Part shown: positions 4,578-18,271 of the stretch, piece after piece | Layout of the letters: each line of letters starts with the position of its first letter | How positions within the stretch are numbered: position 1 is the first letter of the stretch | Origin: an uncultured Schlesneria sp. | GTDB taxonomy: Bacteria > Planctomycetota > Planctomycetia > Planctomycetales > Planctomycetaceae | NCBI GenBank assembly: GCA_903904835.1 | Contig: CAIVEI010000160.1 | Span: forward strand, 1-54,946 | DNA: 54,946 nucleotides | Reading direction: 5' to 3' | Made by a program: the position numbers and the translations under genes | Notes under the pieces: generated by a model | Database searches by the model: none | What the model saw: only the letters and a program-made list of their open reading frames with translations | Told to the model about the DNA's origin: nothing

Positions 4578-5933
4578 TCATTCCGGAAGGACATAAGGTT
4601 TTCGATAATCGCTTCTTAAAAATCTATTAGCGGATTCGTTATTGGTAAAAAGTTCCGTTTTCGCATTCCATTCGAGGAGAGATTTCGTACGGTGTGCAAT
4701 GTTAGCGATCAGTGCCGCAGACGTGCACCGATGGCCGTATTCGATGTCACATGGCGGCGCTTTGCGGCTTTTCACACTGTCGAGAAATGTTCGTGCGTGA
4801 TCGGCGTCGCGAATCACTCCTTCGGCTTTCTTCGCTTCGATTTCTGGCTTAGCGCCCGTTCGCCACCCTCGTTCGCGTTCCCGATCGATCGGAGAGCGAG
4901 CCGCAAATTCGTTTGGTGTGATGTTTTCGGGTACAATCTCGTAACCGCTCGTGCTGAAATACATTGTCCCCTTGGTTCCCCGAAACTCAATTTCACAAGG
5001 GCGGCCTGTTGGCGACGATCCAGTCGCATTGAATTGCGAGAAAGTCACCAACGTATCGCCTGGATAGTGCCAGACAACTTCCAGCGTGTCAGGGACTTCT
5101 CGATTGTCATAGTTGGCAAATTTCCCGCCCATGGCCATCACTGCCAGAGGTGCCTCGACACCCAATGACCGATGGATCTGAGCGAGGTAATGCACGCCGA
5201 AATTGGTCAATTGGCCGCCGGAAAAATCGTAGAACCATCGAAACCGATAAAATGTTCGATTCTTGTTGTACTGCCGTTTCTTGGCGGGTCCGACCCAGCC
5301 GTCCCAATCAAAGTCTTTCGGCGGTTCTTCGTCTGGCGGATTCCCGATTCCTTTGGGCCATTCGTTTTGAACGTGAAAACATCTGACAATGGTCACCTTG
5401 CCGATTGCGCCGCTGCGAATAAGCTCTGCCGCTTCACCGCAAAAACCGGACGACAATCGTTGAATGCCGACCTGGACGATTCGCTGGTTCTCTCGTGCCG
5501 CTTTCACCATCGCTCGCCCTTCGTTAACAAAGGTCGATACGGGCTTTTCGACGTAGACATCTTTTCCTGCCTGACAGGCATGAATCATTTGCAAGGCGTG
5601 CCAGTGATCAGGGGTGGCGATGACCACGGCGTCAAGATCCTTCCGCTCTAACAGTTTACGGTAGTCACTGAATTGTTCAGGCTGGCTGCCGATTTTCGTG
5701 GCCGCGAATTCGCGATATGGCTGGTACAGGTCACAGACCGCCACAGCCTCGCAGTCTTTCTGTTCTAAGAAGCCACTCAGGACCTGATCGCCCCGATTTC
5801 CGAGTCCGATGAAGCCGACACGCACCCGCTCGTTCGCGCCCAGGACGCGACTTGCGCTCGCGGCGGTTACGACGGAAGATGCAGCCGCGACAATTGTTGA
5901 CTTGGTGAAATCTCGGCGAGTCAGGCGTGACAT
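4578..5933 (-). CDS. Tat-exported Gfo/Idh/MocA family oxidoreductase
   Basis: A 451-residue oxidoreductase from the ATG at 5933. The frame stays open further upstream, but this start is preceded by AGGAG and gives a proper twin-arginine signal ([11 protein letters not shown] plus an Ala-rich stretch), so it is preferred. The Rossmann motif GFIGLGNRG, the EKPVST motif and the FGVHYLAQ segment identify the family. In that segment the usual H-x-x-D aspartate position reads Gln, a departure from the first family member in this window. It follows the carbon-nitrogen hydrolase gene on the same strand after 121 bases. Substrate unknown. Confidence 0.88.
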
Positions 5934-6054
5934 GCAGATTCTCCTGGAAATGAAAATAGCTGGGCCATGGATTGGTCGGTTTATGGGACGTACGGGGCTA
6001 ATCGGACGTATGGGACTGATTGTATTCTCAGGATTTGAATAACAAAACCAGCTT

Positions 6055-7473
6055 CTAGTTGCCATCTGGCTTCGTTTGCAATTCGACTTCATGCGCCGGT
6101 GGAGGCCGATGTCGCTGGACCATCGAATGAAAATCGCCAAGATTATTTCGCCAGAAATGACGCTCATTTAAATCGACTTCTGCGATGGCGATCTCGTCCC
6201 AGTTGTTGGCTTTGGCAATCGGTTCGCCCGCATGGTTGTAGACGGCAGAGATCGTCCAGTTTGCTTTCGCGTCGCAGAACGTATTGCTGACGAGGTAAAC
6301 ATGATTCTCACAGGCACGAGCCTGAGCGAGAAGCGGGTTACATCCCCAGACTGGCCAGGCAATGACTTCAGCACCGCCATTGGTCAATTCACGAGCGACC
6401 TCGGGGAAAAAGCCGTCGTAACAGACCATTAACCCGACTTTGCCGAATTTTGTCTGAAATACGGGAAAATCCTTGCCCGGAGTCACCCCCTGCTCGATTT
6501 CCCGGTGCGGCAAACAGACTTTTCGATACTTGCCGATCAAATTGCCGTCGGGTCCCAATAGTGCTGCCACATTGTAAACAATGTGATCGTCTCGTTCGTA
6601 CAGTCCGACCACGATATGAATCGCGTGTTGTTTCGCAAGTGACGCAAAATAGTCAGTCGTTGGGCCGGGAACAGATTCGGCGACTTCATGTGGCTGCTTT
6701 TTGACCCCCACGTACGGTACTGTTTCGCCGAGTACGACGAGATCTGCATGTTGTTTTGCCGCTTCCGCGATGAATGGGGCGAATTCTTCGCAATTCGCTC
6801 GCGGCGATTTACCTATCGGAACATGATGGATTGTTGCCAATCGGACTTTTCGCGAGGGTGGTGCTGGCGTCTCTTCAAATCGGACGCCACTCCATTTACA
6901 CGTTCCCTTCGGTGCCCATTGCAGGTGTAGTTCGACAATCGCTTGCGTGGCATCTGGCGGGACCTGGTATGTTCCTTCAACGTGCGTCCACCCTTCGGGT
7001 GTTGTCTCCTTATCGAGTGGATGTTCTGGCTCCGCCAAAGGGACCATTCCGGGTGTGGACTCTAATCTAGTGGGGACTTTGGCCAGAACCGCCTTTCCTT
7101 TTGCGTCCAGCCAGACAATCCTGGCAACGGCGCTTCGGAAAGGGGCTGAGACTTGCGAGGTTTTACGGTCCGCCGTAAATCGAACATACTTTCCGCCAAC
7201 GACTGGGAATGACTTCTGGAACCAGCCGTTCTCGCCAATGGAGTCGGATGATGTGATGACAAACGCACCTTGATGTCGGGGACCCCCCTGGCTTTCGTAT
7301 GAGAATTGAGGCATCGTCTCATCGCGGTGGGACGTTGGCTCCCACCCGGCCGGGTATTCACCAATCACTTTTGCAGATTGTACGGCTGTCGGCTCCGCAT
7401 AAACTGGATTTGCGATGAACGAGGCAAAGGTGATCGTTGCCGCTAGTCTTACGGCTTTCAGGATTCGGGTCAT
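6055..7473 (-). CDS. Secreted carbon-nitrogen hydrolase (nitrilase superfamily)
   Basis: A 472-residue protein with a signal peptide (to about residue 26, PVYA). Residues 30-205 form a beta-rich region resembling a carbohydrate-binding or jelly-roll module. The carbon-nitrogen hydrolase domain starts near 208 and holds the Glu-Lys-Cys triad: Glu250 in VLGETVP, Lys318 in [10 protein letters not shown] and Cys351 in VGLMVCYDG. Members cleave nitriles, amides or N-carbamoyl groups; an exported amidase is the fitting call. Beta-sandwich plus nitrilase is a layout I associate with planctomycetes. It lies 89 bases after the alpha/beta hydrolase gene, possibly in one transcript. Substrate unknown. 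Confidence 0.88.
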
Positions 7474-7562: not shown

Positions 7563-8510
7563 TCACTTCGTTACCGGACTTTTTACGAGATATTTATCGA
7601 ACCAGTCGGCCAGGATCGCGATGTCGTTGCCAAGTTCGGGCCAGCCATGTCCTTGCCCCTTCCGAACGACCAATTCGCAGGGGACGTTGTTGGTCTTTAG
7701 TTTTTCGATGACGATTTCGGCCTGCTGAATCGGGACAAGAGAATCAGCATCCCCGTGAATGATTAACGTTGGTGGGTCGTCGCTGGTGACGTGGTTTACT
7801 GGTGAAATATTTCGACCGATTTCGATCAGCCGTTTCTCGTCGGTAATCGGGACGAACGCATTGATGGTTTTGTCGAACTCGTGAAAGTCGAACGGGGCTC
7901 GATAATTCTTGAGAACCCCGCGACCCATCGCGTTTTCATCCGGCTTGCCATAATTCAGAAAATCGGTGGGCGGAAAGAAACAAGCCACTGCCTGGACGCG
8001 GCTCGACTCACGATCGACCGGATCTGTGGCGTCGCGATTGCCAAGAGTCCCTGCCGTCCCCTGCATCAGAGACAGGTGACCACCCGCCGAAGCGCCGCTG
8101 ATTCCAATTCGATCGGGGTCGATTTGATATCGCGAGGCACGACTGCGGATGAAACGAACTGCACGATGCATGTCGTCGACAATCTCCAGGATCGTGAACT
8201 TCGGCTGGCTACCATGAACCACCGCGAAAACGGTGTATCCCCGTTTCAGAAATTCATTCACAAAACCCTGGTTGATTGCCTCGTGCGACGAGTACCACCC
8301 GCCGCTGACGACAAATATCACAGCGGCACCGTTTCCCGGTTTACCTTCGGCTTGCTTGGGTGAGAAAACGTCCAGCGTCAACGCTGTACCGAACTTCCGA
8401 GCATAAATGACGTCTTCAGTTCGAGTCACTGCCTCATCGGCAATCGCGAAGGAAGACGCAAACGCGAGTATCACAGTCAAGTAGAGCCAGGATGTGGATT
8501 GAAGTGTCAT
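7563..8510 (-). CDS. Secreted alpha/beta hydrolase (BD-FAE-like esterase)
   Basis: A 315-residue secreted esterase or acylhydrolase. The start at 8510 is chosen over an ATG 12 bases upstream because GGAG lies at the right distance before it. A signal peptide runs to FAIADE. The fold shows the oxyanion segment VVSGGWY, the nucleophile elbow GISGASAGG (Ser nucleophile), the acid in HGDADSLVP and the catalytic histidine in GQGHGWPE. This matches the hormone-sensitive-lipase/BD-FAE group, which often removes acetyl or feruloyl groups from polysaccharides. It is the first gene of the minus-strand run; a non-coding stretch separates it from the surface-protein cluster. Confidence 0.87.
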   Translation of the reverse strand: MTLQSTSWLYLTVILAFASSFAIADEAVTRTEDVIYARKFGTALTLDVFSPKQAEGKPGNGAAVIFVVSGGWYSSHEAINQGFVNEFLKRGYTVFAVVHGSQPKFTILEIVDDMHRAVRFIRSRASRYQIDPDRIGISGASAGGHLSLMQGTAGTLGNRDATDPVDRESSRVQAVACFFPPTDFLNYGKPDENAMGRGVLKNYRAPFDFHEFDKTINAFVPITDEKRLIEIGRNISPVNHVTSDDPPTLIIHGDADSLVPIQQAEIVIEKLKTNNVPCELVVRKGQGHGWPELGNDIAILADWFDKYLVKSPVTK

Positions 8511-8522
8511 CGGCGTCTCCAA

Positions 8523-9145
8523 AGTTTTTTACGGACCGCATGATTTGCCGAATTTTGACAACAAATCAGTCTTCATCTCTGTTCAGGCTAACCAAATTCC
8601 AACTGCTTCCGCAATTCTGAGCTGCTCTCAGAATTTCATCCGCTCCACAAGACGCCAGTTTGGCCTGAGGGAGCGCCACCGGAAGTCGCACTCGATGCTG
8701 ACTTTGAGCCGCGAACCTCTGATTGTCTGGAAATTACTAACTGAAGGTCGTTTGCAAAGCGACGGTGAGTCCACCGGGTCACTGAAAATGATTTTTACAG
8801 CCATACCACGACGCCGGGCAATGTAATTGTTATTGTCACGTTCTGTGTTTGTGTATGTAAAGATTACTTGCTTGGCGTTTTCGCGATTAAATCCCGTTCT
8901 GGAATCCATTTTTCATCCATTTTATACCGTCCATTCACTCCGGCGCGGCATTTGCCTCCTTATCCGACTCAACCTTCTGCGAACCCTTGAAACGGAAACG
9001 GGTTTGCAAGCTTCAATTTAAAAACACCAAGAATGCTTAAGGTTCATTCCTTGTTGCACTTGGATCGCCGTCGGTGCGCTTTTGCACGTCTCGATGAGGT
9101 TGCGCGGCGGTAACAGACAAACGACTTGATAAAGGGTCATAAAAA
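8523..9145. other. Non-coding spacer with two hairpins
   Basis: This 620-base spacer separates the minus-strand enzyme run from the plus-strand surface-protein cluster, so it should hold promoters for both. A perfect 9-base stem (AATTCTGAG / CTCAGAATT, 8613-8635) and an 8-base stem with one G-U pair (8979-8986 with 9000-9007) are visible. Neither has a T-run. Open frames on either strand here have no protein-like composition. Confidence 0.5.
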
Positions 9146-9688
9146 ATGAGAGTTCTTACAGGGTTTGCTGCGTTTGTTGCATTAGCAGTGTTTTCTCCAG
9201 TGGTCAGGGCAGATGTCTTGTTTGACTTGAGGCTCAGCGAAGCAAAAGGTGGTCGCTGCGATCGAGATGTGTTCAACGATGGTTTTGCTGGCGAGGCTGA
9301 TTTTGATCGCACCGATTTTCGGGCTTCAGGTGATCAGGCGATTCGAGGCGAATGGCTGATGAGCCACAGCGTTCGTGTTCCGGAAGTGGTTCGTTTACCG
9401 AAATCGCTTCCCCAATTGATTGCGGCGAGTAAGGGCATTACTCCGATTCCGGTCAAGGAAACCGACGTCGTTGCCATTTCTACCTTTTCGCAATTTGTAC
9501 AACTCTTTAAATCGACGACGGGTGCCGAGAAAGACACGACTGAGCGTGTTAGCGAGATCGCACGAGGGATTCTTCCTAAAGCGTCTCATATGACGCTTAT
9601 CGGCCTGCTTGTGTTCAGCTTTGCGGGGATGTGTTCTGTAGTCGGTATGAATCGTATTGGAGTATTCGGGCGAACTGCGTGTCAGTAA
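9146..9688 (+). CDS. Small secreted protein, variant-tail family (paralogue A)
   Basis: A 180-residue protein with a signal peptide (cleavage near VRADVL) and a C-terminal membrane segment. I recognise no named family. It shares three blocks with the genes at 11169 and 14246: a W-L-M-x-x-x-V-R segment (about 69-77), GITPIP...ISTF-x-x-F (about 96-115), and the tail LPKASHMTLIGL, then about 17 hydrophobic residues and an Arg/Gly end (about 142-180). The tail has the layout of a PEP-CTERM sorting signal, but Pro-Lys-Ala-Ser replaces Pro-Glu-Pro. AAAGGG precedes the ATG and a terminator follows the gene. It is the most divergent of the three copies. A surface location is inferred. Confidence 0.75.
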   Translation: MRVLTGFAAFVALAVFSPVVRADVLFDLRLSEAKGGRCDRDVFNDGFAGEADFDRTDFRASGDQAIRGEWLMSHSVRVPEVVRLPKSLPQLIAASKGITPIPVKETDVVAISTFSQFVQLFKSTTGAEKDTTERVSEIARGILPKASHMTLIGLLVFSFAGMCSVVGMNRIGVFGRTACQ

Positions 9689-9730
9689 GGGGTTCGATTG
9701 TTTTGATCTGTAGGCTGTTCGACGACAATG

Positions 9731-9759
9731 AAAACTCCCTGCGCAAGCAGGGGGTTTTT
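9731..9759 (+). terminator. Rho-independent terminator after paralogue A
   Basis: The arms AAAACTCCCTGC and GCAGGGGGTTTTT form a GC-rich stem with A/T flanks ending in a T-run, 42 bases after the stop codon at 9688. Confidence 0.75.
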
Positions 9760-9769
9760 CTTGCATTCT

Positions 9770-9824
9770 GGGGGTGGGCAAAACAGACGAAGGCCGTCGG
9801 CCGACGGGAGTTGTGCCCACCCCC
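9770..9824. repeat. Palindromic element, probably dispersed
   Basis: Perfect 11-base arms GGGGGTGGGCA (9770-9780) and TGCCCACCCCC (9814-9824) enclose a GC-rich centre with the self-complementary GTCGGCCGAC. It looks like a REP/MITE-style element. No transposase is nearby. Confidence 0.55.
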
Positions 9825-10167
9825 AAAAATTTTTCCTATGGTGATTCCCGCCGCGTGTGACCGAATCACTCGCTTTGGATACAGCGACCTTTGACTGCTT
9901 CGCCGATTCGAGGCGATCGCTTGGAAGATTCATTTCCAGGGTGACGCTCTGATGCGGCAATCGGTCGATAGCCACTACGGTCGTCAACTGTGTCTCAGGC
10001 CAATCAATCCGCGACATGTGCTGACAAGCGGAGCTTTGGGATTGACCATCTGAAGTGAACGAAGTCTTTGCCGAACGGAGTGGGGGAGAATTTGTCGTTT
10101 GGGTGTGCGAAGTATTGCGCGGCATGTGTTGTCAGTTCTTTTCTTAATTGGTGTTCCCTGCCAAAAT

Positions 10168-10310
10168 GTAAAAAATACTGTTTTTGATGATCGTCTTCTA
10201 TTGGGTTGCGTTGGGCTGCGGCTCTGATGGTGTAAAATATGCAGTTTTGTGGGGCTGTGTTGGTTTTCATCGTCCTGAATGTCGCCTTACACGGTAAAAT
10301 ATACTTTTTC
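10168..10310. repeat. Three evenly spaced GTAAAATAT-type motifs
   Basis: The copies are GTAAAAAATACTGTTTTT (from 10168), GTAAAATATGCAGTTTTG (from 10232) and GTAAAATATACTTTTTC (from 10294). The start-to-start distances are 64 and 62 bases, about six helical turns. They could be operator sites or worn repeat units. Confidence 0.45.
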
Positions 10311-10331
10311 TTGATTGGTATTTGATTTGCT

Positions 10332-10553
10332 TTACAGGTTCTCCATCAAGTACTCGAACTCAATATTGTTGCACAGGTCGTCGAAGTCTCTTAATTGGGA
10401 TTCGATCGTGAAAATGAGCTGGGTGCGAGGTGTTTCACCGAAAATTTGATGACTCACAAGAGGGTTATTCTCTTGCATTGCATCGTGGATTTCCGGGAAT
10501 AAATCGACTTTTTTGGTTCGTTGAACAGCTTTTGGGCTCGTGGATAGAAGTGT
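10332..10553 (-). pseudogene. Coding-like fragment without a start (gene remnant)
   Basis: An open frame of 73 codons lies between stops on the minus strand and has protein-like composition: SPKAVQRTKKVDLFPEIHDA near its front and FTIESQLRDFDDLCNN then FEYLMENL at its end. The only ATG is internal (10478) and would give 48 residues. I read it as the 3' end of a decayed gene of unknown family. A weakly similar stretch lies antisense to 13640-13750, just ahead of the second copy of the 64-base element. Confidence 0.35.
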
Positions 10554-10630
10554 TTATGTTTCGTGCAGGCGTCAAATGTTGCTACGCGATCGAATGCACA
10601 TAAAAAAACGTAAAAAAACATTTTTTCTAA

Positions 10631-10694
10631 CGATTTTGCCCATTGCCGTGTCAGAGTGGCTGCCTAAAACTCTCCCAACTCGGACACATTAATC
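10631..10694. repeat. 64-base element, copy 1 (upstream of paralogue B)
   Basis: Aligns without gaps to 13830-13893, with 49 of 64 identical positions and the best match at the right end (AACTCGGACA then ATTAATC). It lies about 475 bases before the paralogue B gene. Confidence 0.7.
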
Positions 10695-11168
10695 GAACAT
10701 TAATGAATCCGGGACGCAAAAATTTCAGTCTTTACACATATCGGTGTATGGTCTGAATCAGTGTGAATAACGGAGTCATTCGGTGGTTTTAATGTATGCC
10801 ATCCGCTCAATGGCAGAGCAAGGATTCAAGTTTGGCGGTGGGTGCGAACTGAAGCACCGTTGCTTGAGTCGTGATTGTCGAACGGGCCAACAGGCTTCCC
10901 TTCGGCATTAATGAAGAAGGCTTTTTCGCAAGTTGCAGGCCAGGTTGCATCCAGGCCGCGCGATTGGCTGTGTCAAATTCTGACCGGTTGCGAGTCTGAG
11001 ATTTGAAATCCTGCGCAACCGTTGCGAAGAACCTGAGTCACGCTTATTAACAGTATCAATAAGTGTGTTGAAAATAAGTTGAATTTGACGTGTTCTGTAC
11101 TGTTTATGCCGCTTCATGATCTCGCTTTCACGAAGTGGTTGGTCGATTAAAGTAAGGAGTTTTTTGAA

Positions 11169-11747
11169 ATGAAAGCTTTGAATTCGTGGGTTGCGGTTGT
11201 TGTTGCTAGTTCGGCGATTGCCAGCCAGGCAAGTGCCGATGTCCTGATGGTGGGTGCTCCTGACGTTAACGCAGTGAATCAACAGAAGTCGTTCGACGAA
11301 GTCGGGGATGTTGCGATTGAGAGCCAGGAGAGCTCAAGTCGAGTGCGCCCTGTATTTGTTTCAGGTAGTTTAATCAATAAGTCGAGTACAGGTGCCTGGT
11401 TGATGGCACAAAGCGTTCGTCGCGATGGTGCTGCCCGACCGCAAAAGGTGGAAATGAATCTGTTGGCCGGTCGTGGTCACGGAATCACTCCGATTCCACC
11501 CGATGGAACCGAAGTGCGAGCGATTTCGACGTTCGCTCAGTTTGCTCAAATGTTTAAGCCTACGTCAGACAGTAGTGAGGTTCAGGCGCTGCTTGACGAT
11601 GATGGTGAGATTGTTCCAAAGACGTCGAACATGACCTTGATCGGCCTGTTTACTTTCAGTTTGGCGGGAATCACTGCCGTGATTAGCGCCAGCCGACGTG
11701 GATTCTTCGGTCGTACGACTCGTCAACGTCGTGCTCGGATGTACTGA
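11169..11747 (+). CDS. Small secreted protein, variant-tail family (paralogue B)
   Basis: A 192-residue protein with a signal peptide ending near ASADVL, and no domain I recognise. It is the closest relative of the gene at 14246. Shared blocks: SGSLINKSSTGAWLMAQSVR (about 74-93), ITPIPPDGTEVRAISTFAQF (about 109-128), and the tail IVPKTSNMTLIGLFTFSLAG followed by a hydrophobic run and RRGFFGRTTRQRR. Pro, short hydrophobic helix and terminal Arg cluster match PEP-CTERM architecture except that PEP reads PKT. AAGGAG precedes the ATG, so it is well expressed on paper. Probably exported and anchored by the same or a related sortase system; this is inference. Confidence 0.8.
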   Translation: MKALNSWVAVVVASSAIASQASADVLMVGAPDVNAVNQQKSFDEVGDVAIESQESSSRVRPVFVSGSLINKSSTGAWLMAQSVRRDGAARPQKVEMNLLAGRGHGITPIPPDGTEVRAISTFAQFAQMFKPTSDSSEVQALLDDDGEIVPKTSNMTLIGLFTFSLAGITAVISASRRGFFGRTTRQRRARMY

Positions 11748-11936
11748 TCGGATTGATTCGCAGCCGAAGTCAAAACAACCCCCCTGTTTTGTGTTGCTTT
11801 CGCAGCGTCGATCTCGGGGAAACATCCAGCGTTTTCGTTTACATGCAGTGTTTCGCTGGATACCAACTGAACGGTTTCGACTCCGTGTTTGAATCAAATT
11901 AATTGCAGAATGCAGAGACAATCAAGGGCCAGAGCA

Positions 11937-12743
11937 ATGAATTCGGAAGTGAAAATCAACATGGTTCGCAACTTAATGTCCGCCGGATTTCGTACGGCCA
12001 AATCAACTGTTGTTGCAGTAACGTTGCTTGTTGCACAATCAGCTCACGCAGGTTTAATTGAGACCGTGGAAGCTCCGGGAGTGCAAACGACCACCGCCGC
12101 GAATACGACGACAATCGATTTCAACCAACTTCCGACCGGCTACTCTAACAGTTTAACTGTTAATGTGACTTCGACATTGACGGCAACTTATAGCGGCAAT
12201 TTCTCGATCAACGCTCCTGGTCAATATGGAGGAGCGGTTGATCCATCAACTGGCAAAGACTCGAACTATTTCGCGGTGACGTCCGGTGATGTGACCATGA
12301 CGTTGAGCAATGCTCAAGCCTATTTCGGTTTGTGGATTTCCGCCGCCGATAAATTCAATCAAATTGCGTTCTATAACGGTAGCACGGAAGTCGCCGCGTT
12401 AACTGGGACGGGCGCGTTTCTTTCCTCGTTGCCGTCAACGTACAACGGGAATCCCACTGCGGACTTCAAAGGTCAAGACAGCAGCGAGAAGTTTGTCTTC
12501 GTCAATTTCTACGCACAAACGGCACAAGATGAGTTCAACAAGATTGTCTTGACCAACACGCCTGGTAGCGGGACGATCTTCGAAAGTGACAATCATACCT
12601 TCAGCACGACATTGCAGGCTCCCACTTCGGGCGGGACAAACTTGCAGGCTCCCTCTTCTGTCCCGGAACCCTCTTCGTTCGCCCTGCTTGGTCTCGGCGG
12701 ACTCGGTATGGCGATTCGATCTCTTCGCCGCTGTCGTGCTTAG
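11937..12743 (+). CDS. PEP-CTERM surface protein, Npun_F0296-like
   Basis: A 268-residue exported protein from the ATG at 11937, chosen because AAGGG lies eight bases before it; an ATG at 11961 is possible. The signal peptide ends at SAHAG. The body carries NYFAVTSGDVTMTLSNAQAY and YFGLWISAADKFNQIAFYNG, which resemble the Npun_F0296 family of exosortase-dependent surface proteins. A short repeat (LQAPTSGGT / LQAPSS) links to a canonical sorting tail: VPEPSSFALLGLGGLG then RRCRA. In the usual pathway exosortase cuts near PEP and moves the protein to the cell surface. A diverged paralogue lies at 15229. Confidence 0.88.
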   Translation: MNSEVKINMVRNLMSAGFRTAKSTVVAVTLLVAQSAHAGLIETVEAPGVQTTTAANTTTIDFNQLPTGYSNSLTVNVTSTLTATYSGNFSINAPGQYGGAVDPSTGKDSNYFAVTSGDVTMTLSNAQAYFGLWISAADKFNQIAFYNGSTEVAALTGTGAFLSSLPSTYNGNPTADFKGQDSSEKFVFVNFYAQTAQDEFNKIVLTNTPGSGTIFESDNHTFSTTLQAPTSGGTNLQAPSSVPEPSSFALLGLGGLGMAIRSLRRCRA

Positions 12744-12948
12744 GCTTAAGCAGGACTCAGAACGTCGCGGTGTCGATTGAGCGAATGGTGCTTTGCACAG
12801 TCGTCCGGTTGAGGCGATTGGCATATTTCGAGAAGCGCCCCAGAGGCATCTTGCGCTTGCGATGTGAATTAAGCAGGGTTCTGTGAGGCGATTTGAGCAG
12901 GAAACCCTCGTTGCCACAGTACGAATTTTTATATGGTTTGCGATTTCA

Positions 12949-13866
12949 ATGTTACGTCCCGCTATTTTTTCCGTCCTTTTGCTTCTTGTGGGCGCATCAA
13001 TTGCGACTGCGGGGTTAATCAACTCTTCCCTTGAGTATGGCCAGGCAGCCAACTCGTGGAGCGACCACAGCGACGCCTCGATAAATCCCTCTGGGGGCTG
13101 GTTCACCACTGAATCGGATCATCAAATCGAGATCTGGGGTAACGGATACATGGGAGTCAACGCTTACGATGGAGCCAATTTCGCAGAATTGAATGCAAAC
13201 GCCGTCGGCACGCTTTATCAAACGGCGACGGGTATTGGGTCGGGTGATTTGGTCGATTACCACTTCGCCCACCGTGGTCGTCAAGGCGTTGACACAATGG
13301 AGCTCAAGATCACAGATACGACGACGGGGGCGATCCTGTTCGATCATCAATATTCAGATGGCAATCAGGCTTGGAGCTTTTACTCAGGCAGTTTTACCGT
13401 TGGACCCAACGTCGCTTCGACCGACTCGATCAAGTTTGCTTACGAATCGATCAGTGCAGCAGGCGGGAATCCAACGATAGGGAACTTCCTTGATAATGCG
13501 GACTTCGGGATTGGTGCCAATTCCTCACTCCCTTCCGCGGTACCAGAACCTTCTTCTTTCGCATTGCTCGGGCTGGGTATTCTTGGTTTGGCGATCAGTG
13601 CTTACCGGCGCCGAAAGATGGCGACGCCGATATTGGCTCTAAGAGTTTGTGTGCAAATGGGTTGTGGATTTTCAAGTGTACTCCAAGAGCCCTCTTTTTC
13701 GATATTGTTTCTTCGAATGACAACTTCAATCGGATTTGGATTCAACGAATTTACCCATCTCTCGCAAACGTCGCATGTTGTCGAAAGTGGGGGGCGATGC
13801 CTCAACAATGCAATTTTTTATTTATTCCCCGATTTTCCCTGTTGCCGTTTTCGAGTGCCGGTCTAG
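12949..13866 (+). CDS. PEP-CTERM protein with abnormal C-terminal extension
   Basis: From the ATG at 12949 the protein is 305 residues; an earlier in-frame ATG at 12883 would add a poor N-terminus. A signal peptide (to IATAG) precedes a beta-rich body with GWFTTESDHQIEIWGNGYM and ITDTTTGAILFDHQYSDG, like a jelly-roll surface domain. Then comes a canonical anchor, VPEPSSFALLGLGILGLAIS plus YRRRK. The frame does not stop there but runs on about 83 residues with Cys/Phe-rich, unlikely sequence. A stop at 13640-13642 in the next frame would end the protein eight codons after the Arg cluster. The tail overlaps the repeated block at 13830. The functional product probably ends near 13620-13640. Confidence 0.75.
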   Translation: MLRPAIFSVLLLLVGASIATAGLINSSLEYGQAANSWSDHSDASINPSGGWFTTESDHQIEIWGNGYMGVNAYDGANFAELNANAVGTLYQTATGIGSGDLVDYHFAHRGRQGVDTMELKITDTTTGAILFDHQYSDGNQAWSFYSGSFTVGPNVASTDSIKFAYESISAAGGNPTIGNFLDNADFGIGANSSLPSAVPEPSSFALLGLGILGLAISAYRRRKMATPILALRVCVQMGCGFSSVLQEPSFSILFLRMTTSIGFGFNEFTHLSQTSHVVESGGRCLNNAIFYLFPDFPCCRFRVPV

Positions 13867-13893
13867 AACCATTGCAACTCGGACAAATTAATC
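13830..13893. repeat. 64-base element, copy 2 (upstream of paralogue C)
   Basis: Second copy of the element at 10631, with 49 of 64 positions identical and no gaps. It lies about 350 bases before the paralogue C gene and overlaps the last 37 bases of the extended PEP-CTERM frame. Confidence 0.7.
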
Positions 13894-14245
13894 AGAAGAA
13901 GCAACACAAGACCTGCATGCCATGCAGATCAGTGGAGCACGCAATGAGTTGAATCGCGGTTCACCCTCTGAGTGTCGAAATCTGCCAGCCGTTCGATTGC
14001 TGTCCAGGTTTTGAATTCGACGGGTCCCGAGATTTATGACGACTTCTATGGGACGTGATCGTCGAACTGCTGAATTTGGCTCGTCCGACTAAGTTGAAAA
14101 TGCCATCTCCAAGGTTGCGGGCCGGGTTTTCGGTTCAAGCAACCGAGTACATCGCTCCCCGTCGGGGGAGCGGCTCTTCCATGTGGCGAAAGTCGCATTG
14201 GTCGTACGAATCATGCTTGAAGCTTGTTGAAAAGGGCCAACTGAA
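13867..14245. other. Spacer before paralogue C
   Basis: Apart from the end of the 64-base element, this 380-base stretch shows a GC-rich hairpin near 14155-14172 (GCTCCCC / GGGGAGC around CGTC) and no credible gene. It probably contains the promoter for the gene at 14246. Confidence 0.45.
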
Positions 14246-14836
14246 ATGAAGACTTCGAAATCGTGGGTTGTTTCTATCGTTGTCTGCTCAGTCATTGCTA
14301 GCCAGGCAAACGCCGACGTTCTGATGGTTGGCCCTTTGGAAAGAGTCTCCAATGTAAATGCACTGAGGCCGCTGAGATCGTTTGATGGCGATTGTAACAG
14401 GGCCGTGGAAAATCAGGCGAATTCAAGCCGAGTGCGTTCTCTATTTGTTTCCGGCAGCTTGATCAACAGGAGCAGTATGGGGTCCTGGTTAATAGCACAG
14501 TGCGTTCGTCGTGATACTGCTACCCAACCAAAAAAGACCGAAATCAATCAGTCGATCGGTCGTCGTCGGGAAATCACTCCGATTCCGGCTACTGGAACGG
14601 AAGTTCGGCCAATATCGACATTCGACAATTTTGTTCACAAGTTTAGGGGCCGCAACGAAAGCGATGTCGTTGAAACAAGCGTCCGTCACGGCGATGAGAT
14701 CGTTCCTAGAACGTCTAATATGACCTTGATTGGTTTGTTTGTACTCACTCTGGCGGGAATTACCGCCGCCATTAGCGTAAGTAGGAATGGATTACTCGGG
14801 ATCACGGCAAACTTTCGCCGCTCACGCCGCGTCTGA
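14246..14836 (+). CDS. Small secreted protein, variant-tail family (paralogue C)
   Basis: A 196-residue protein closely related to the gene at 11169. It shares the signal-peptide end (SQANADVLMVG), SGSLINRSSMGSWLIAQ (about 78-94), EITPIPATGTEVRPISTF (about 112-129) and the tail IVPRTSNMTLIGLFVLTLAG, a hydrophobic run and an Arg-rich end. Here Pro-Arg-Thr-Ser stands where PEP would be. The regions between these blocks have diverged in length and charge, which suggests that only the blocks are constrained. AAAAGGG precedes the ATG. Likely an exported, C-terminally anchored surface protein of unknown role. Confidence 0.8.
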   Translation: MKTSKSWVVSIVVCSVIASQANADVLMVGPLERVSNVNALRPLRSFDGDCNRAVENQANSSRVRSLFVSGSLINRSSMGSWLIAQCVRRDTATQPKKTEINQSIGRRREITPIPATGTEVRPISTFDNFVHKFRGRNESDVVETSVRHGDEIVPRTSNMTLIGLFVLTLAGITAAISVSRNGLLGITANFRRSRRV

Positions 14837-15228
14837 TCGGTCAAGAAAGCTTCAGCGCCAAGATCTAACTCATTCGGGCAATCGTTTCCTGGGCACATTG
14901 ATGCAATGTGCCTTGCGGTACTGACCCAAGTGAAATCAAGCAGCGTAATTCCTGTTTCAAACCTGTTTCTCGTTTCAAGGACAATGCCCATGGTCGCGTC
15001 ATCGAAAAAGCTCAGCAACATCTCGATTACTTTTGGCAATTTCCCAGTCATCATTGTGACTTGCTTATTTCTAGCCGTTGCCGACGTGGTCAGGCTATTT
15101 CCAGCAAGACTGCAGCTCCCGTCTACCGAACGATTTTGGTGATCGGCTTTTATCCCTCCTTTCGGTTCTTATGCCCGTATCGCATCTGCAACTAAGGCGC
15201 GTTTAGTAAACAAAATCAAAAAAGGGCC
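14837..15228. other. Spacer with no recognised gene
   Basis: About 390 bases between paralogue C and the acidic-stalk protein. Short open frames on both strands overlap each other and look random. No strong terminator hairpin seen. Confidence 0.4.
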
Positions 15229-16164
15229 ATGCTTATGCATTTTTTTACGAACGTCAGTAAGTCTCGACAGCCCGCTTCGACGGCAATCCGGATTGCGTCA
15301 TTCGCAGCTTTCCTGTCCTGGATGATCATTTCACAATCTGCCGACGCTGGATTAATCGAAGCAGCGAAGGACGCCTCTTGCCATTCGTCCTCCGTTAAAG
15401 AAAAGGCCAACGCCGTCTCAGATCAGCCGCCTGTAAACGATACTGCAACGAATAAGATTCAGGCAGTGACGTTATTTCTTACGCATACGCGTCATCTTAT
15501 GAGCGCGACTTCGAATCTCTATGCTAAGCCCATGGATTTGTCTGCCGTCCTGGGTTCAAAAGATCTTGGATTTACCTCAAGTGAGATTACGATGGCTCTC
15601 ATCAATGCTCACGTTTATGCTCGCCTCAAGATTTCTTCGGACGACAGCGTTAATCATGTCTCACTTTGTTGCGGTGAAAATGAAGTCATTTCTCTCGCTG
15701 ATATGCACAGCATGCTTTTAAGTCCGTTGAAGTCGTATTGCAGAGGTGACATCGACCAATTTCAGGCTTTTAACCCCGAAGATGATGTCTTATTCCTTCC
15801 TTTCAGCTCCCCCTTAACAAATGACGAGCGTCGTACGACCTCGCAGTCAACGACTCCCACGTTTGCTGCGACTTTCGTCGCGGCAAATCACACGATCGGA
15901 AATGCGTCACACACTCAAGTCTCTCGCCGAGCAACGAACGGTGTAGAGTCATCGGATAGTGACGAGTATGACGAAGACAATGGCGAAGACTCATCGGATA
16001 ACAAATCATCTGACGACCGCGCCACAGGCGATCGTCGACCGTTGGGCGCAGAAGTAGATTCGTTTGATCCTCTGATGGCATCTGTCGCCCTCCTTATTTT
16101 CGGGGCAATTGCTTTAGTGGTAAACACTGCTCCCAGGAGAAGTGTGCTCACAACGCAGTTGTAA
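15229..16164 (+). CDS. Diverged Npun_F0296-like protein with acidic stalk and TM anchor
   Basis: A 311-residue secreted protein (signal peptide to about residue 40, SADAGLIEAA). It is a diverged paralogue of the PEP-CTERM gene at 11937: EITMALINAHVYARLKISSD (about 119-138) and N-x-V-S-L...E-V-I-S-L align with the VTMTLSNAQAYFGLWIS region, and FVAANHTIG aligns with FESDNHTFS. The VPEP motif is missing. Residues 239-264 are instead a Ser/Asp/Glu-rich stalk, followed by a hydrophobic helix (about 282-299) and APRRS. It is therefore predicted to be membrane-anchored at its C-terminus with an acidic spacer, possibly calcium-binding. AAAAGGG precedes the start. Confidence 0.7.
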   Translation: MLMHFFTNVSKSRQPASTAIRIASFAAFLSWMIISQSADAGLIEAAKDASCHSSSVKEKANAVSDQPPVNDTATNKIQAVTLFLTHTRHLMSATSNLYAKPMDLSAVLGSKDLGFTSSEITMALINAHVYARLKISSDDSVNHVSLCCGENEVISLADMHSMLLSPLKSYCRGDIDQFQAFNPEDDVLFLPFSSPLTNDERRTTSQSTTPTFAATFVAANHTIGNASHTQVSRRATNGVESSDSDEYDEDNGEDSSDNKSSDDRATGDRRPLGAEVDSFDPLMASVALLIFGAIALVVNTAPRRSVLTTQL

Positions 16165-16261
16165 CTCCACTTCTTAGCAAGGCTGGGAATCATACAGCTT
16201 AATGTTGTAAGCTTCTGCTAACCTTGAAATGTAAGTGTAGTCTGAATCTGCGTCGTGTTTT

Positions 16262-16372
16262 AAATCACTGATGTTCTGCGAGTCAATGTGACTTTCAGAG
16301 TTACCGCCCCGATTCTGTGCCTAGTTGTAGGCATAATAAGCAGAATCAGCCCCAATAATGAGGATCTGATGA
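16262..16372 (+). promoter_or_regulatory. Conserved upstream region, copy 1
   Basis: This region before the gene at 16373 closely matches 17291-17403. Shared stretches include AAATCACTG, GTCAA-GTGACT-TCAGA, ACCGCCCCG-TTCTG and GCAGAATCAGC. It ends in AGGATCTGATGA ahead of the ATG. Probably contains the promoter and leader carried along in a tandem duplication. Confidence 0.6.
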
Positions 16373-17107
16373 ATGGTTTGTTTTCGGAAGCTTGTACTTG
16401 CGGTGGTCGCAAGTGGCATTTTATCGTTCGGCAGCGCTGCAATCGCTGGGATTATCTACGATAATCTTCCTAATCTGTCGTCCTCCGGCGGAACGGATCC
16501 CGTTTACAACGATGGGCCGCTCTACAATTCATTTTCGACTGGAGGAAGCCCGTCGCAATTGACTGACGTGAAGTTAATGCTGTCAGCGACGCCAGGTGTT
16601 CAGTCGAGTTTCATGGTGAGTCTCCTCGCGGACTCATCAAGCACCCCAGGCTCGCCTGTTACGACGCTTGGAACGTTTGACGACAGTACTTTGGCGTCAA
16701 CAGCATCGGTTTACGACATTTCTGTGGCGTCGTACAATTTGGCCGCAAATACTCGTTATTGGGTTGAGTTGAGCTCCGCGACGAGTTTACCTTCGGTTGT
16801 CGCTTGGGACTATGCATCAAATATCACGGGAAGGGGGATCGGAGGGGAATTCTGGGCTAACACGCCGGGCACTTCACCTAGCGTGACAGGGAACACGCAC
16901 GAGACACCTCCTTACCTAATGCAAGTGACGACGACACAATCATCTGACGCACCGATAGTAATTGATCCTACCCCTCCCCCCGTCAACCCCAACCCGCCAG
17001 AACCTCCTACTTCCAACGTCCCTGAACCCGGCACGCTCTGCCAAGCGCTTACAGCGGTGGCAATCGGGAGTGTCGTATTCGTCCGTCGTCGTATGATTCG
17101 TTCGTGA
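16373..17107 (+). CDS. PEP-CTERM protein, choice-of-anchor R-like, Pro-rich stalk
   Basis: A 244-residue exported surface protein. The signal peptide ends near AAIAG. The body begins IYDNLP and contains DGPLYNSFSTGG, VSLLADSSSTPGSP, LGTFDD and NTRYWVELSS, a pattern I associate with the choice-of-anchor R domain of surface proteins (moderate confidence in the name). A proline-rich linker (about 197-214, PTPPPVNPNPPEPP) precedes the sorting signal VPEPGTLCQALTAVAIG and RRRMIRS. AGGA lies eight bases upstream of the ATG. It is a tandem paralogue of the gene at 17404, which lacks the proline linker. Confidence 0.86.
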   Translation: MVCFRKLVLAVVASGILSFGSAAIAGIIYDNLPNLSSSGGTDPVYNDGPLYNSFSTGGSPSQLTDVKLMLSATPGVQSSFMVSLLADSSSTPGSPVTTLGTFDDSTLASTASVYDISVASYNLAANTRYWVELSSATSLPSVVAWDYASNITGRGIGGEFWANTPGTSPSVTGNTHETPPYLMQVTTTQSSDAPIVIDPTPPPVNPNPPEPPTSNVPEPGTLCQALTAVAIGSVVFVRRRMIRS

Positions 17108-17171
17108 CCAGGGTGACTTTAAAAGTTACCGAGCTTCGACTGCGGAGTGTATCTCTGAATTTCGAATGAAT

Positions 17172-17222
17172 GGCCGGCTCAAGCAGGTGTTACGGCTGGA
17201 GCCGGCCGTGTTTGTATTTGTT
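17172..17222 (+). terminator. Probable terminator
   Basis: The 9-base arms GGCCGGCTC (17172-17180) and GAGCCGGCC (17199-17207) are followed by a T-rich stretch, 65 bases after the stop codon of the gene at 16373. Confidence 0.6.
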
Positions 17223-17290
17223 TTAAGTTCTGTAGACACAGCAGGCATTGAGCGACTGTTGATCGGATGCATCCTTCGCCCGCTTGTTTG

Positions 17291-17403
17291 AAATCACTGA
17301 AGATCTGTTAGTCAACGTGACTCTCAGACTGACCGCCCCGGTTCTGCCGCCAATGTTCAGGCGTGTTTTGCAGAATCAGCACTAAGAGCTTAGGATTGAA
17401 TGA
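17291..17403 (+). promoter_or_regulatory. Conserved upstream region, copy 2
   Basis: Partner of 16262-16372. The conserved blocks keep nearly the same distance from the start codon and end in AGGATTGAATGA before the ATG, as expected for a duplicated promoter and ribosome-binding region. Confidence 0.6.
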
Positions 17404-18069
17404 ATGTGTTTTTCTCGGAAGCTTGCGTTTGCGACTGTCGCAGGCTGCATTTTGTCTTTTGTAAGTGCTGTAAATGCAGGAGAGATCTACAATAATCTTC
17501 CTCCTGTCACGTCCATTGGCAGCTTCGACCCTGTTTTCGACGACGGTCCATCTTACAACTCGTTTTCAACAGGCAGCAATGCTGAATTGCTCACTGACAT
17601 CAAGATGCTTCTTACCGGAACGGGGGGTACACCATCGCAATTCACGGTGAGTCTTCTTGCTGATTCATCAAACGCACCTGGATCGCTCCTCTCGACGCTT
17701 GGAACGTTTAACGATAGTGATAAATTGTCACTAACGGCATCTGTGGTCGATGTTTCCGGCGGCTCGTATGCTCTGGCCGCCAATACTCGTTATTGGGTTG
17801 AGTTGAGCAGTACCGCGCCGAGTCCCCCTTCAACTGTAGCATGGAACTATGCATCAAGTGCTGCGGGAGTGGGTGTTAGTAGTGAATACTGGGCCTACAC
17901 TCCAGGGGGTGTTCTCACGGTTTCTGCAAATTCGGATGTATCTACTCCCTATCAGATGTCAGTGACAACTTCTTCTGCAGTTCCCGAACCCGGCACGTTC
18001 TGTCAAGTTCTGACGGCGTTGGGAGTCGGAGTTTTTGCGATCGCACGTCGTCGAATGATTCGCTCATGA
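17404..18069 (+). CDS. PEP-CTERM protein, choice-of-anchor R-like
   Basis: A 221-residue tandem paralogue of the preceding gene, 1,031 bases downstream start to start. The signal peptide ends near AVNAG. The matching body includes IYNNLP, DDGPSYNSFSTG, VSLLADSSNAPGS, LGTFND and NTRYWVELSS. The anchor is VPEPGTFCQVLTALGVGVFA followed by RRRMIRS. There is no Pro-rich linker before the anchor, so the two proteins may stand at different distances from the surface. A strong terminator follows the gene and ends the plus-strand surface-protein cluster. Confidence 0.86.
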   Translation: MCFSRKLAFATVAGCILSFVSAVNAGEIYNNLPPVTSIGSFDPVFDDGPSYNSFSTGSNAELLTDIKMLLTGTGGTPSQFTVSLLADSSNAPGSLLSTLGTFNDSDKLSLTASVVDVSGGSYALAANTRYWVELSSTAPSPPSTVAWNYASSAAGVGVSSEYWAYTPGGVLTVSANSDVSTPYQMSVTTSSAVPEPGTFCQVLTALGVGVFAIARRRMIRS

Positions 18070-18133
18070 CAAAAATGCTTTGCAAGTCGCCAAGCATCGA
18101 TTGAAGTACGCATTACGTGAATGCAACTGGTGG

Positions 18134-18177
18134 AATACCGGATCAAGCACTACTTTGGCTTGATCCGGTATTTTTTT
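18134..18177 (+). terminator. Strong Rho-independent terminator
   Basis: A perfect 15-base stem, AATACCGGATCAAGC (18134-18148) with GCTTGATCCGGTATT (18158-18172), is followed by more T residues. It closes the surface-protein cluster and may act in both directions, since the WD40 gene converges on it. Confidence 0.9.
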
Positions 18178-18271
18178 GAATGGAGTTTCAGCCGATGTGT
18201 CGTTGGCGAATGATTGTCGGGCATTTCGGCGCCAGTCATACAGAATCGTCACACTTCATCGAACCTTCAAC

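Follow-up and report, generated by a model that had tools for sequence, protein, structure and literature searches.

A tail without PEP in Schlesneria: a candidate offshoot of the PEP-CTERM system that shares an upstream element with part of it

The stretch of DNA analysed here (the window) comprises 54,946 nucleotides (nt) from an uncultured Schlesneria sp. of the Planctomycetota (assembly GCA_903904835.1, contig CAIVEI010000160.1, positions 1 to 54,946) and is part of an 8.18-Mb genome in 211 contigs, called G000 below. Lying among genes for proteins with C-terminal PEP-CTERM tails are three genes whose predicted products end in a tail of similar layout that lacks the PEP motif. These genes, named by their first positions and with product lengths in amino acids (aa), and the tail of one of them are as follows.

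9146..9688, forward strand: family member, type c, 180 aa; tail PKASHMTLIGL from 9575; without the SGSLIN block
11169..11747, forward strand: family member, type a, 192 aa; tail PKTSNMTLIGL from 11616; orthologues in G008, G010 and G012
14246..14836, forward strand: family member, type b, 196 aa; tail PRTSNMTLIGL from 14705; the orthologues in G010 and G012 read PSTS
11616..11744, forward strand: C-terminal tail of the 11169 protein; motif, then predicted membrane helix, then Arg-rich end

A preliminary description of the window had called the three genes paralogues, and this was borne out: in a genome search the 11169 protein matches that of 14246 at an expectation value (E) of 1.1e-56 and that of 9146 at E 2.5e-22, and the three are homologous over their length. 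The count of three holds for the window, a fourth copy being found on another contig (G000:C13:11901-12461). The tail layout stands as described, with P[KR][TA]S.MTLIGL followed by a hydrophobic stretch and then Arg/Gly-rich residues in all three proteins, and other details required amendment. MTLIGL, said to be invariant, is so within the window, but some relatives read MSLIGL, MSLVGL, MPLIGL, MAFIGL or LTIFVL. Of the two blocks thought to interrupt a variable N-terminal part, SGSLIN is present in 11169 and 14246 but absent from 9146, and the signal-peptide region is also conserved (ratio of nonsynonymous to synonymous substitution, dN/dS, ~0.1 in types a and d). In the layout common to the family, a signal-like helix stands at the N-terminus, the middle varies apart from one or two short conserved blocks, and the C-terminus carries a hydrophobic helix and a basic end.

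The family comprises 14 members in five genomes, all of the genus Schlesneria. Thirteen are clear members among 15 same-genus genomes (four each in G000 and G012, three in G010, two in G008) and one distant member is present in G014. In a tree, types b, c and d form supported clades and type a is unresolved; for type c a single orthologue was found, in G012, and the G008 contig ends soon past its type a gene, so that the G008 cluster is not seen whole. With enlarged profiles, family-level and order-level searches alike matched five of 170 genomes, all in one of 58 genera, a search of 397 genomes of the class yielded no convincing member beyond the same five, and a scan of named genomes returned seven loci, all in Schlesneria. 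These searches scored the best first-look candidates only (19 per genome in the family and order searches, eight in the class search), such that a distant member could be missed. Three weak matches in the class (E 0.0012 to 0.0057) were partial, lacked the tail and were taken as chance, and a borderline partial match in G003 (E 0.0095) was dropped as it disappeared with a larger profile. The G014 member lies between a PEP-CTERM gene and a gene that, from its sequence, we take to encode a hydrolase, and the same hydrolase gene borders the window cluster. At the syntenic place beside this gene in G001, G002, G003, G005, G007, G009 and G011 (the ten genus genomes without a member, less G004, G006 and G013), inspection by eye of open reading frames (ORFs) of at least 90 aa revealed no hidden orthologue. 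None of the 14 members matches any Pfam or NCBIfam model at E <= 0.01, and a comparison with solved structures gave one chance-like match only (E 0.089).

PEP is present in none of the 14 tails. At its place the members read PKTS, PRTS, PSTS, PKAS or PKAF, with Lys, Arg or Ser replacing the Glu and Thr or Ala replacing the second Pro, and the most distant member, that of G014, reads VKSS, with no Pro at the first motif place, and continues with MPLIGY. A hydrophobic helix followed by a basic cluster is nonetheless evident in the tail alignment, and no member matches the PEP-CTERM models TIGR02595 or PF07589 at E <= 0.01. The preliminary description raised the prospect of a new sorting-signal class and proposed a search with a profile of the tail. 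Such a profile (12 rows), run against the 15 genus genomes, with the best 150 first-look candidates scored in nine of them, recovered 13 members in four genomes at E 1e-25 to 1.2e-17. The next match stood at E 0.012, and 17 matches between E 0.012 and 0.99 were dropped as chance. The search reached beyond the three window genes, to 13 of the 14 members (the tail profile by itself missed the one in G014), yet found nothing outside the family below E 0.012. Carriers of a signal class would be expected to include unrelated proteins, and since this profile matches one protein family only, the tail, as judged from sequence, is not a transferable sorting-signal class; a tag-like tail within a cluster of tagged genes need not represent a new class of tag.

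Descent from PEP-CTERM, the other possibility that had been put forward, fares better. When the tail profile was compared by hhalign with 16 local PEP-CTERM tails, VPKTSNMTLIGLFTFSLA aligned with VPEPSSFALLGLGGLGMA at a score of 22.0 and a probability of 62%, a score never attained when all columns were shuffled (150 shuffles, mean 9.0) or when the membrane columns alone were shuffled (150 shuffles, mean 12.3). With the PEP columns masked, four of seven single tails were more similar to PEP-CTERM than expected from shuffling of their hydrophobic residues (p < 0.05), and the in-register offset was the best in five of the seven. Common descent of the family tail with PEP-CTERM tails is therefore likely.

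A second link with PEP-CTERM genes lies upstream. A repeat search identified a 64-nt sequence common to the regions before 11169 and 14246 (77% identity), and BLAST located this element in four genomes, ahead of type a, type b and type d genes. A model of nine copies found two more (before the type b genes of G010 and G012), and the resulting model of 11 copies describes an element of ~90 nt, whose distance to the start codon ranges from 90 to about 530 nt. The copies in the window and those before PEP-CTERM genes are these.

10613..10702, forward strand: upstream element copy, ending 467 nt before the ATG of 11169; E 6.5e-21, model-building copy
13814..13903, forward strand: upstream element copy, ending 343 nt before the ATG of 14246; E 7.6e-20, model-building copy
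L131:5050-5132 and 7226-7300; L153:4162-4243, 5460-5538 and 7390-7471: element copies before PEP-CTERM genes

In 76 loci (901,337 bases, some overlapping) around family genes, PEP-CTERM genes, exosortase genes or syntenic places, the final model found 16 distinct copies at E <= 0.05. Eleven precede family genes (of 14) and match by construction, having been used to build the model, whereas the other five, all before PEP-CTERM genes, are independent finds; nothing else was found at this threshold. Two of the five lie in the C60 locus of G000, one of them before a gene with a broken tail, and three in the C251 locus of G012. In three sets of Markov-resampled sequence the best match had an E of 0.39. 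Weaker matches were dropped, among them one in L102 (E 0.21) and nine with E values between 0.6 and 4.6. Rfam gave no match up to E 1 in window positions 8400-18200 and no consensus RNA structure was found for the element; these results speak against an RNA reading, and the element is accordingly treated as DNA. It may be a site through which the planctomycete PEP-CTERM system is regulated, and it provides a specific upstream sequence common to part of the PEP-CTERM gene set of one planctomycete. For PEP-CTERM genes, PMC1569441 describes long upstream regions with common DNA motifs, two in number, of 17 nt each and associated with PrsK/PrsR and sigma-54, and reports these motifs from Proteobacteria only. 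Both cases involve conserved DNA in long upstream regions of surface-protein genes, but the Schlesneria element is longer, precedes few PEP-CTERM genes and, compared by description, shows no match to those motifs. In a literature search on PEP-CTERM promoters in planctomycetes, the titles and abstract openings of the other papers matched mention no such element. In the L131 locus, the PEP-CTERM-type gene at 5957-6739 (reverse strand), which has an element upstream, has a broken tail frame, and the related G012 gene in L153 has an intact tail.

The tail of type a is also unusually constant. G000, G010 and G012 do not differ over its first 27 residues, and the proportions of nonsynonymous (pN) and synonymous (pS) differences per site are 0.000 and 0.63, respectively, over the 27 codons. 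For the three genome pairs, differences thus number 0/27 each in this tail, in comparison with 48/149, 41/149 and 46/157 residues in the rest of the protein and 29/103, 30/105 and 32/105 (~28-30%) in the PEP-CTERM tails of the four orthologue sets that these genomes all possess (Fisher p 3e-4 to 6e-4). The G008 copy departs from this sequence once in the 27 residues and once again at a shared site of the basic end. In five PEP-CTERM orthologue sets of the cluster the pN/pS ratio ranges from 0.17 to 0.42. All these ratios, including the dN/dS given above, derive from simple counting with synonymous sites near saturation, and the genome pairs are not independent of one another. By these patterns of substitution the tail is under purifying selection, which is very strong in type a. 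A tag that requires no more than a motif and a hydrophobic helix drifts. As the PEP-CTERM control tails do so and that of type a does not, the comparison suggests that the type a tail may make a specific contact in the membrane.

The enzyme that sorts PEP-CTERM proteins is represented in G000 by a single exosortase match (PF09721, in G000:C97), which adjoins an EpsI-like gene (41.3 bits against a cut-off of 42.8) and a kinase-like gene, presumably for a chain-length kinase. Its sequence carries CxG, NxxR and HxxxG, described as exosortase motifs in PMC1569441. The same exosortase type (E ~1e-56) occurs in six of the 15 genus genomes; the family is found in five of these six, each with one exosortase, and in none of the nine others (Fisher p 0.002). 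The co-occurrence with a sortase that the preliminary description had asked about was thus observed, although these genomes are related and kinship confounds it, which makes it weak evidence, and G007 has an exosortase of this type without the family. In G005 there are two exosortase matches and no PEP-CTERM match at E <= 0.01, and this genome may use another tag, whereas G003 (94% complete) has 23 PEP-CTERM matches and no exosortase match.

In its resemblance to known systems the family is closest to PEP-CTERM/exosortase (EpsH; TIGR02595, PF07589, TIGR02602). Common to both are a signal-like N-terminus, the C-terminal succession of motif, hydrophobic helix and basic end, genes placed after long intergenic regions, an exosortase in the genome and, for three of the four G000 copies, a location among PEP-CTERM genes. 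The family differs in its substitution of Lys, Arg or Ser for Glu and its lack of a model match, in a basic end of greater length, which reaches 17 residues in type a, in the frozen membrane helix of type a, and in the confinement of its tail to one protein family rather than many unrelated proteins. The Gly-Gly motif that marks GlyGly-CTERM proteins is absent from the family tail, no rhombosortase exceeds the cut-off in G000 and, unlike MYXO-CTERM, the tail has no invariant Cys, although the three-part layout is shared with both of these tags (GlyGly-CTERM/rhombosortase and MYXO-CTERM/myxosortase). LPXTG/sortase systems are set apart by the lack of a PF04203 sortase in G000.

Taken together, these observations lead us to favour, with confidence that is about evenly balanced, a reading in which the family is a lineage-restricted offshoot of PEP-CTERM proteins, probably co-regulated with part of that system, whose tail is kept as an uncleaved membrane anchor. 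The offshoot is backed by the profile comparison, by the common upstream element and, subject to the kinship already mentioned, by co-occurrence with one exosortase type. According to this scheme, the proteins would be exported by Sec and, as single-pass proteins, would stay anchored to the cytoplasmic membrane by the uncleaved tail. They would be expressed together with some PEP-CTERM proteins and may serve the same surface or exopolysaccharide system by means of a helix in contact with a fixed membrane partner. The finding does not stand as a new sorting class; viewed as a PEP-CTERM offshoot with a common upstream element, its novelty is modest.

Several observations weigh against the offshoot-and-anchor reading. 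The element is absent before type c genes, the G014 member and the window's own four VPEP-tailed neighbours, and it precedes only four intact PEP-CTERM ORFs, whereas a pattern count over the regions surrounding PEP-CTERM genes gave 69 such ORFs; one of the four (187 aa as listed) starts without a signal-like sequence. The single-sequence comparison with PEP-CTERM fails for 9146, for the type c protein of G012 and for the distant G014 tail. Types b, c and d have no frozen tail, with pN/pS ratios of 0.27, 0.51 and 0.23, respectively, and with 8-9/27 differences in b and 4-6/27 in d, values within or near the PEP-CTERM control range, and type a was picked out only after all four types had been seen. 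The proposed topology rests on an AlphaFold2 model with a mean predicted local distance difference test score (pLDDT) of 49.8 and a predicted template modelling score (pTM) of 0.14, in which a helix spans residues 155-177 of the 11169 protein at low confidence. Finally, a Pro before a charged residue is kept in 13 of the 14 members, and a motif conserved where a sorting enzyme would cut also fits processing.

The last of these points leads to the strongest alternative, in which the sole G000 exosortase still accepts the tail as a substrate and cuts it at a relaxed or charge-reversed motif, P-[KRS]-[TA]-[SF], so that the proteins reach the surface in the manner of PEP-CTERM proteins. The in-register profile alignment, the upstream element and the presence of one exosortase type in all five family-bearing genomes (with no family in the nine genomes lacking that type) speak for this alternative. 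PEP is, however, near-invariant in the defining description of the tag (PMC1569441), and all 16 local tags have it, although it was by the PEP motif that they had been chosen. The lack of any match to TIGR02595 or PF07589, the G014 member with no Pro at the motif place in a genome that has the same exosortase type, the confounding of the co-occurrence by kinship and the exosortase of G007 without the family also argue against it, and we consider this alternative rather unlikely, although it is the best placed of those weighed here.

Less probable still, and unlikely in our estimation, is an ordinary single-pass membrane family whose tail resembles PEP-CTERM by composition only and whose place among PEP-CTERM genes is accidental. 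Consistent with this are the weak per-sequence similarity of three of the seven tails, the G014 tail, which lacks P, E and P, and the type d copies of G000 and G010, around which no PEP-CTERM gene appears in the list of ORFs; against it stand a profile score reached by none of 300 column shuffles and a specific upstream element held in common with PEP-CTERM genes. The first proposal, a new sorting-signal class with a dedicated sortase, is very improbable: its motif is conserved across paralogues and species, but the tail sits on one protein family, and searches of G000 for known enzyme families revealed, beyond the one exosortase, no PF04203 sortase and only five rhomboid-type matches, all below the cut-off of the rhombosortase model TIGR03902 (best 48.7 bits against 84), a model that also gives sub-cut-off matches in 14 of 14 control genomes.

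A more specific form of membrane contact can be envisaged for type a, namely that its protein is a non-cleavable pseudo-substrate of the exosortase, which, in PEP-CTERM register but with reversed charge, would dock in the membrane groove and regulate or scaffold the sorting of PEP-CTERM proteins, some of whose genes have the same upstream element. This would explain why the type a helix is frozen while those of real substrates drift; we regard it as a long shot. More generally, the family would offer a naturally occurring relative of the PEP-CTERM tag in which the charge is reversed, and with it a means to ask what an exosortase actually reads.

The remaining genes of the cluster include the four VPEP-tailed neighbours that had been described, all present and all used as control sets, of which only 11889 and 12883 exceed the Pfam cut-off, and a further protein without PEP.

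11889..12743, forward strand: PEP-CTERM neighbour with an Npun_F0296 domain; control set
12883..13866, forward strand: PEP-CTERM neighbour with ~80 extra residues past the tail; control set
16373..17107, forward strand: VPEP-tailed neighbour with a choice-of-anchor R domain; control set
17404..18069, forward strand: VPEP-tailed neighbour with a choice-of-anchor R domain; control set
15229..16164, forward strand: second no-PEP protein, unrelated to the 9146/11169/14246 family; paralogue of the 11889 Npun_F0296-type PEP-CTERM protein

The paralogy of 15229 and 11889 is indicated by BLASTP (E 1e-14, 25% identity over 212 aa). In an alignment with its orthologues in G010 and G012, the 15229 protein ends in FDP, a hydrophobic helix and PRR or PRM. 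As this paralogue of a PEP-CTERM protein lacks PEP, the motif was probably lost more than once in the window cluster. Besides its no-PEP membrane tail, 15229-16164 has an acidic, Ser-rich linker. The orthologues of 12883-13866 in G010 and G012 end just past the tail, pointing to a stop loss or an assembly error in the window ORF. Downstream (3') of the 9146 gene, within 9735-9828, a terminator-like hairpin was recognized by eye, and past the hairpin a 31-nt inverted repeat (9766-9796/9798-9828) resembles a small repetitive palindrome.

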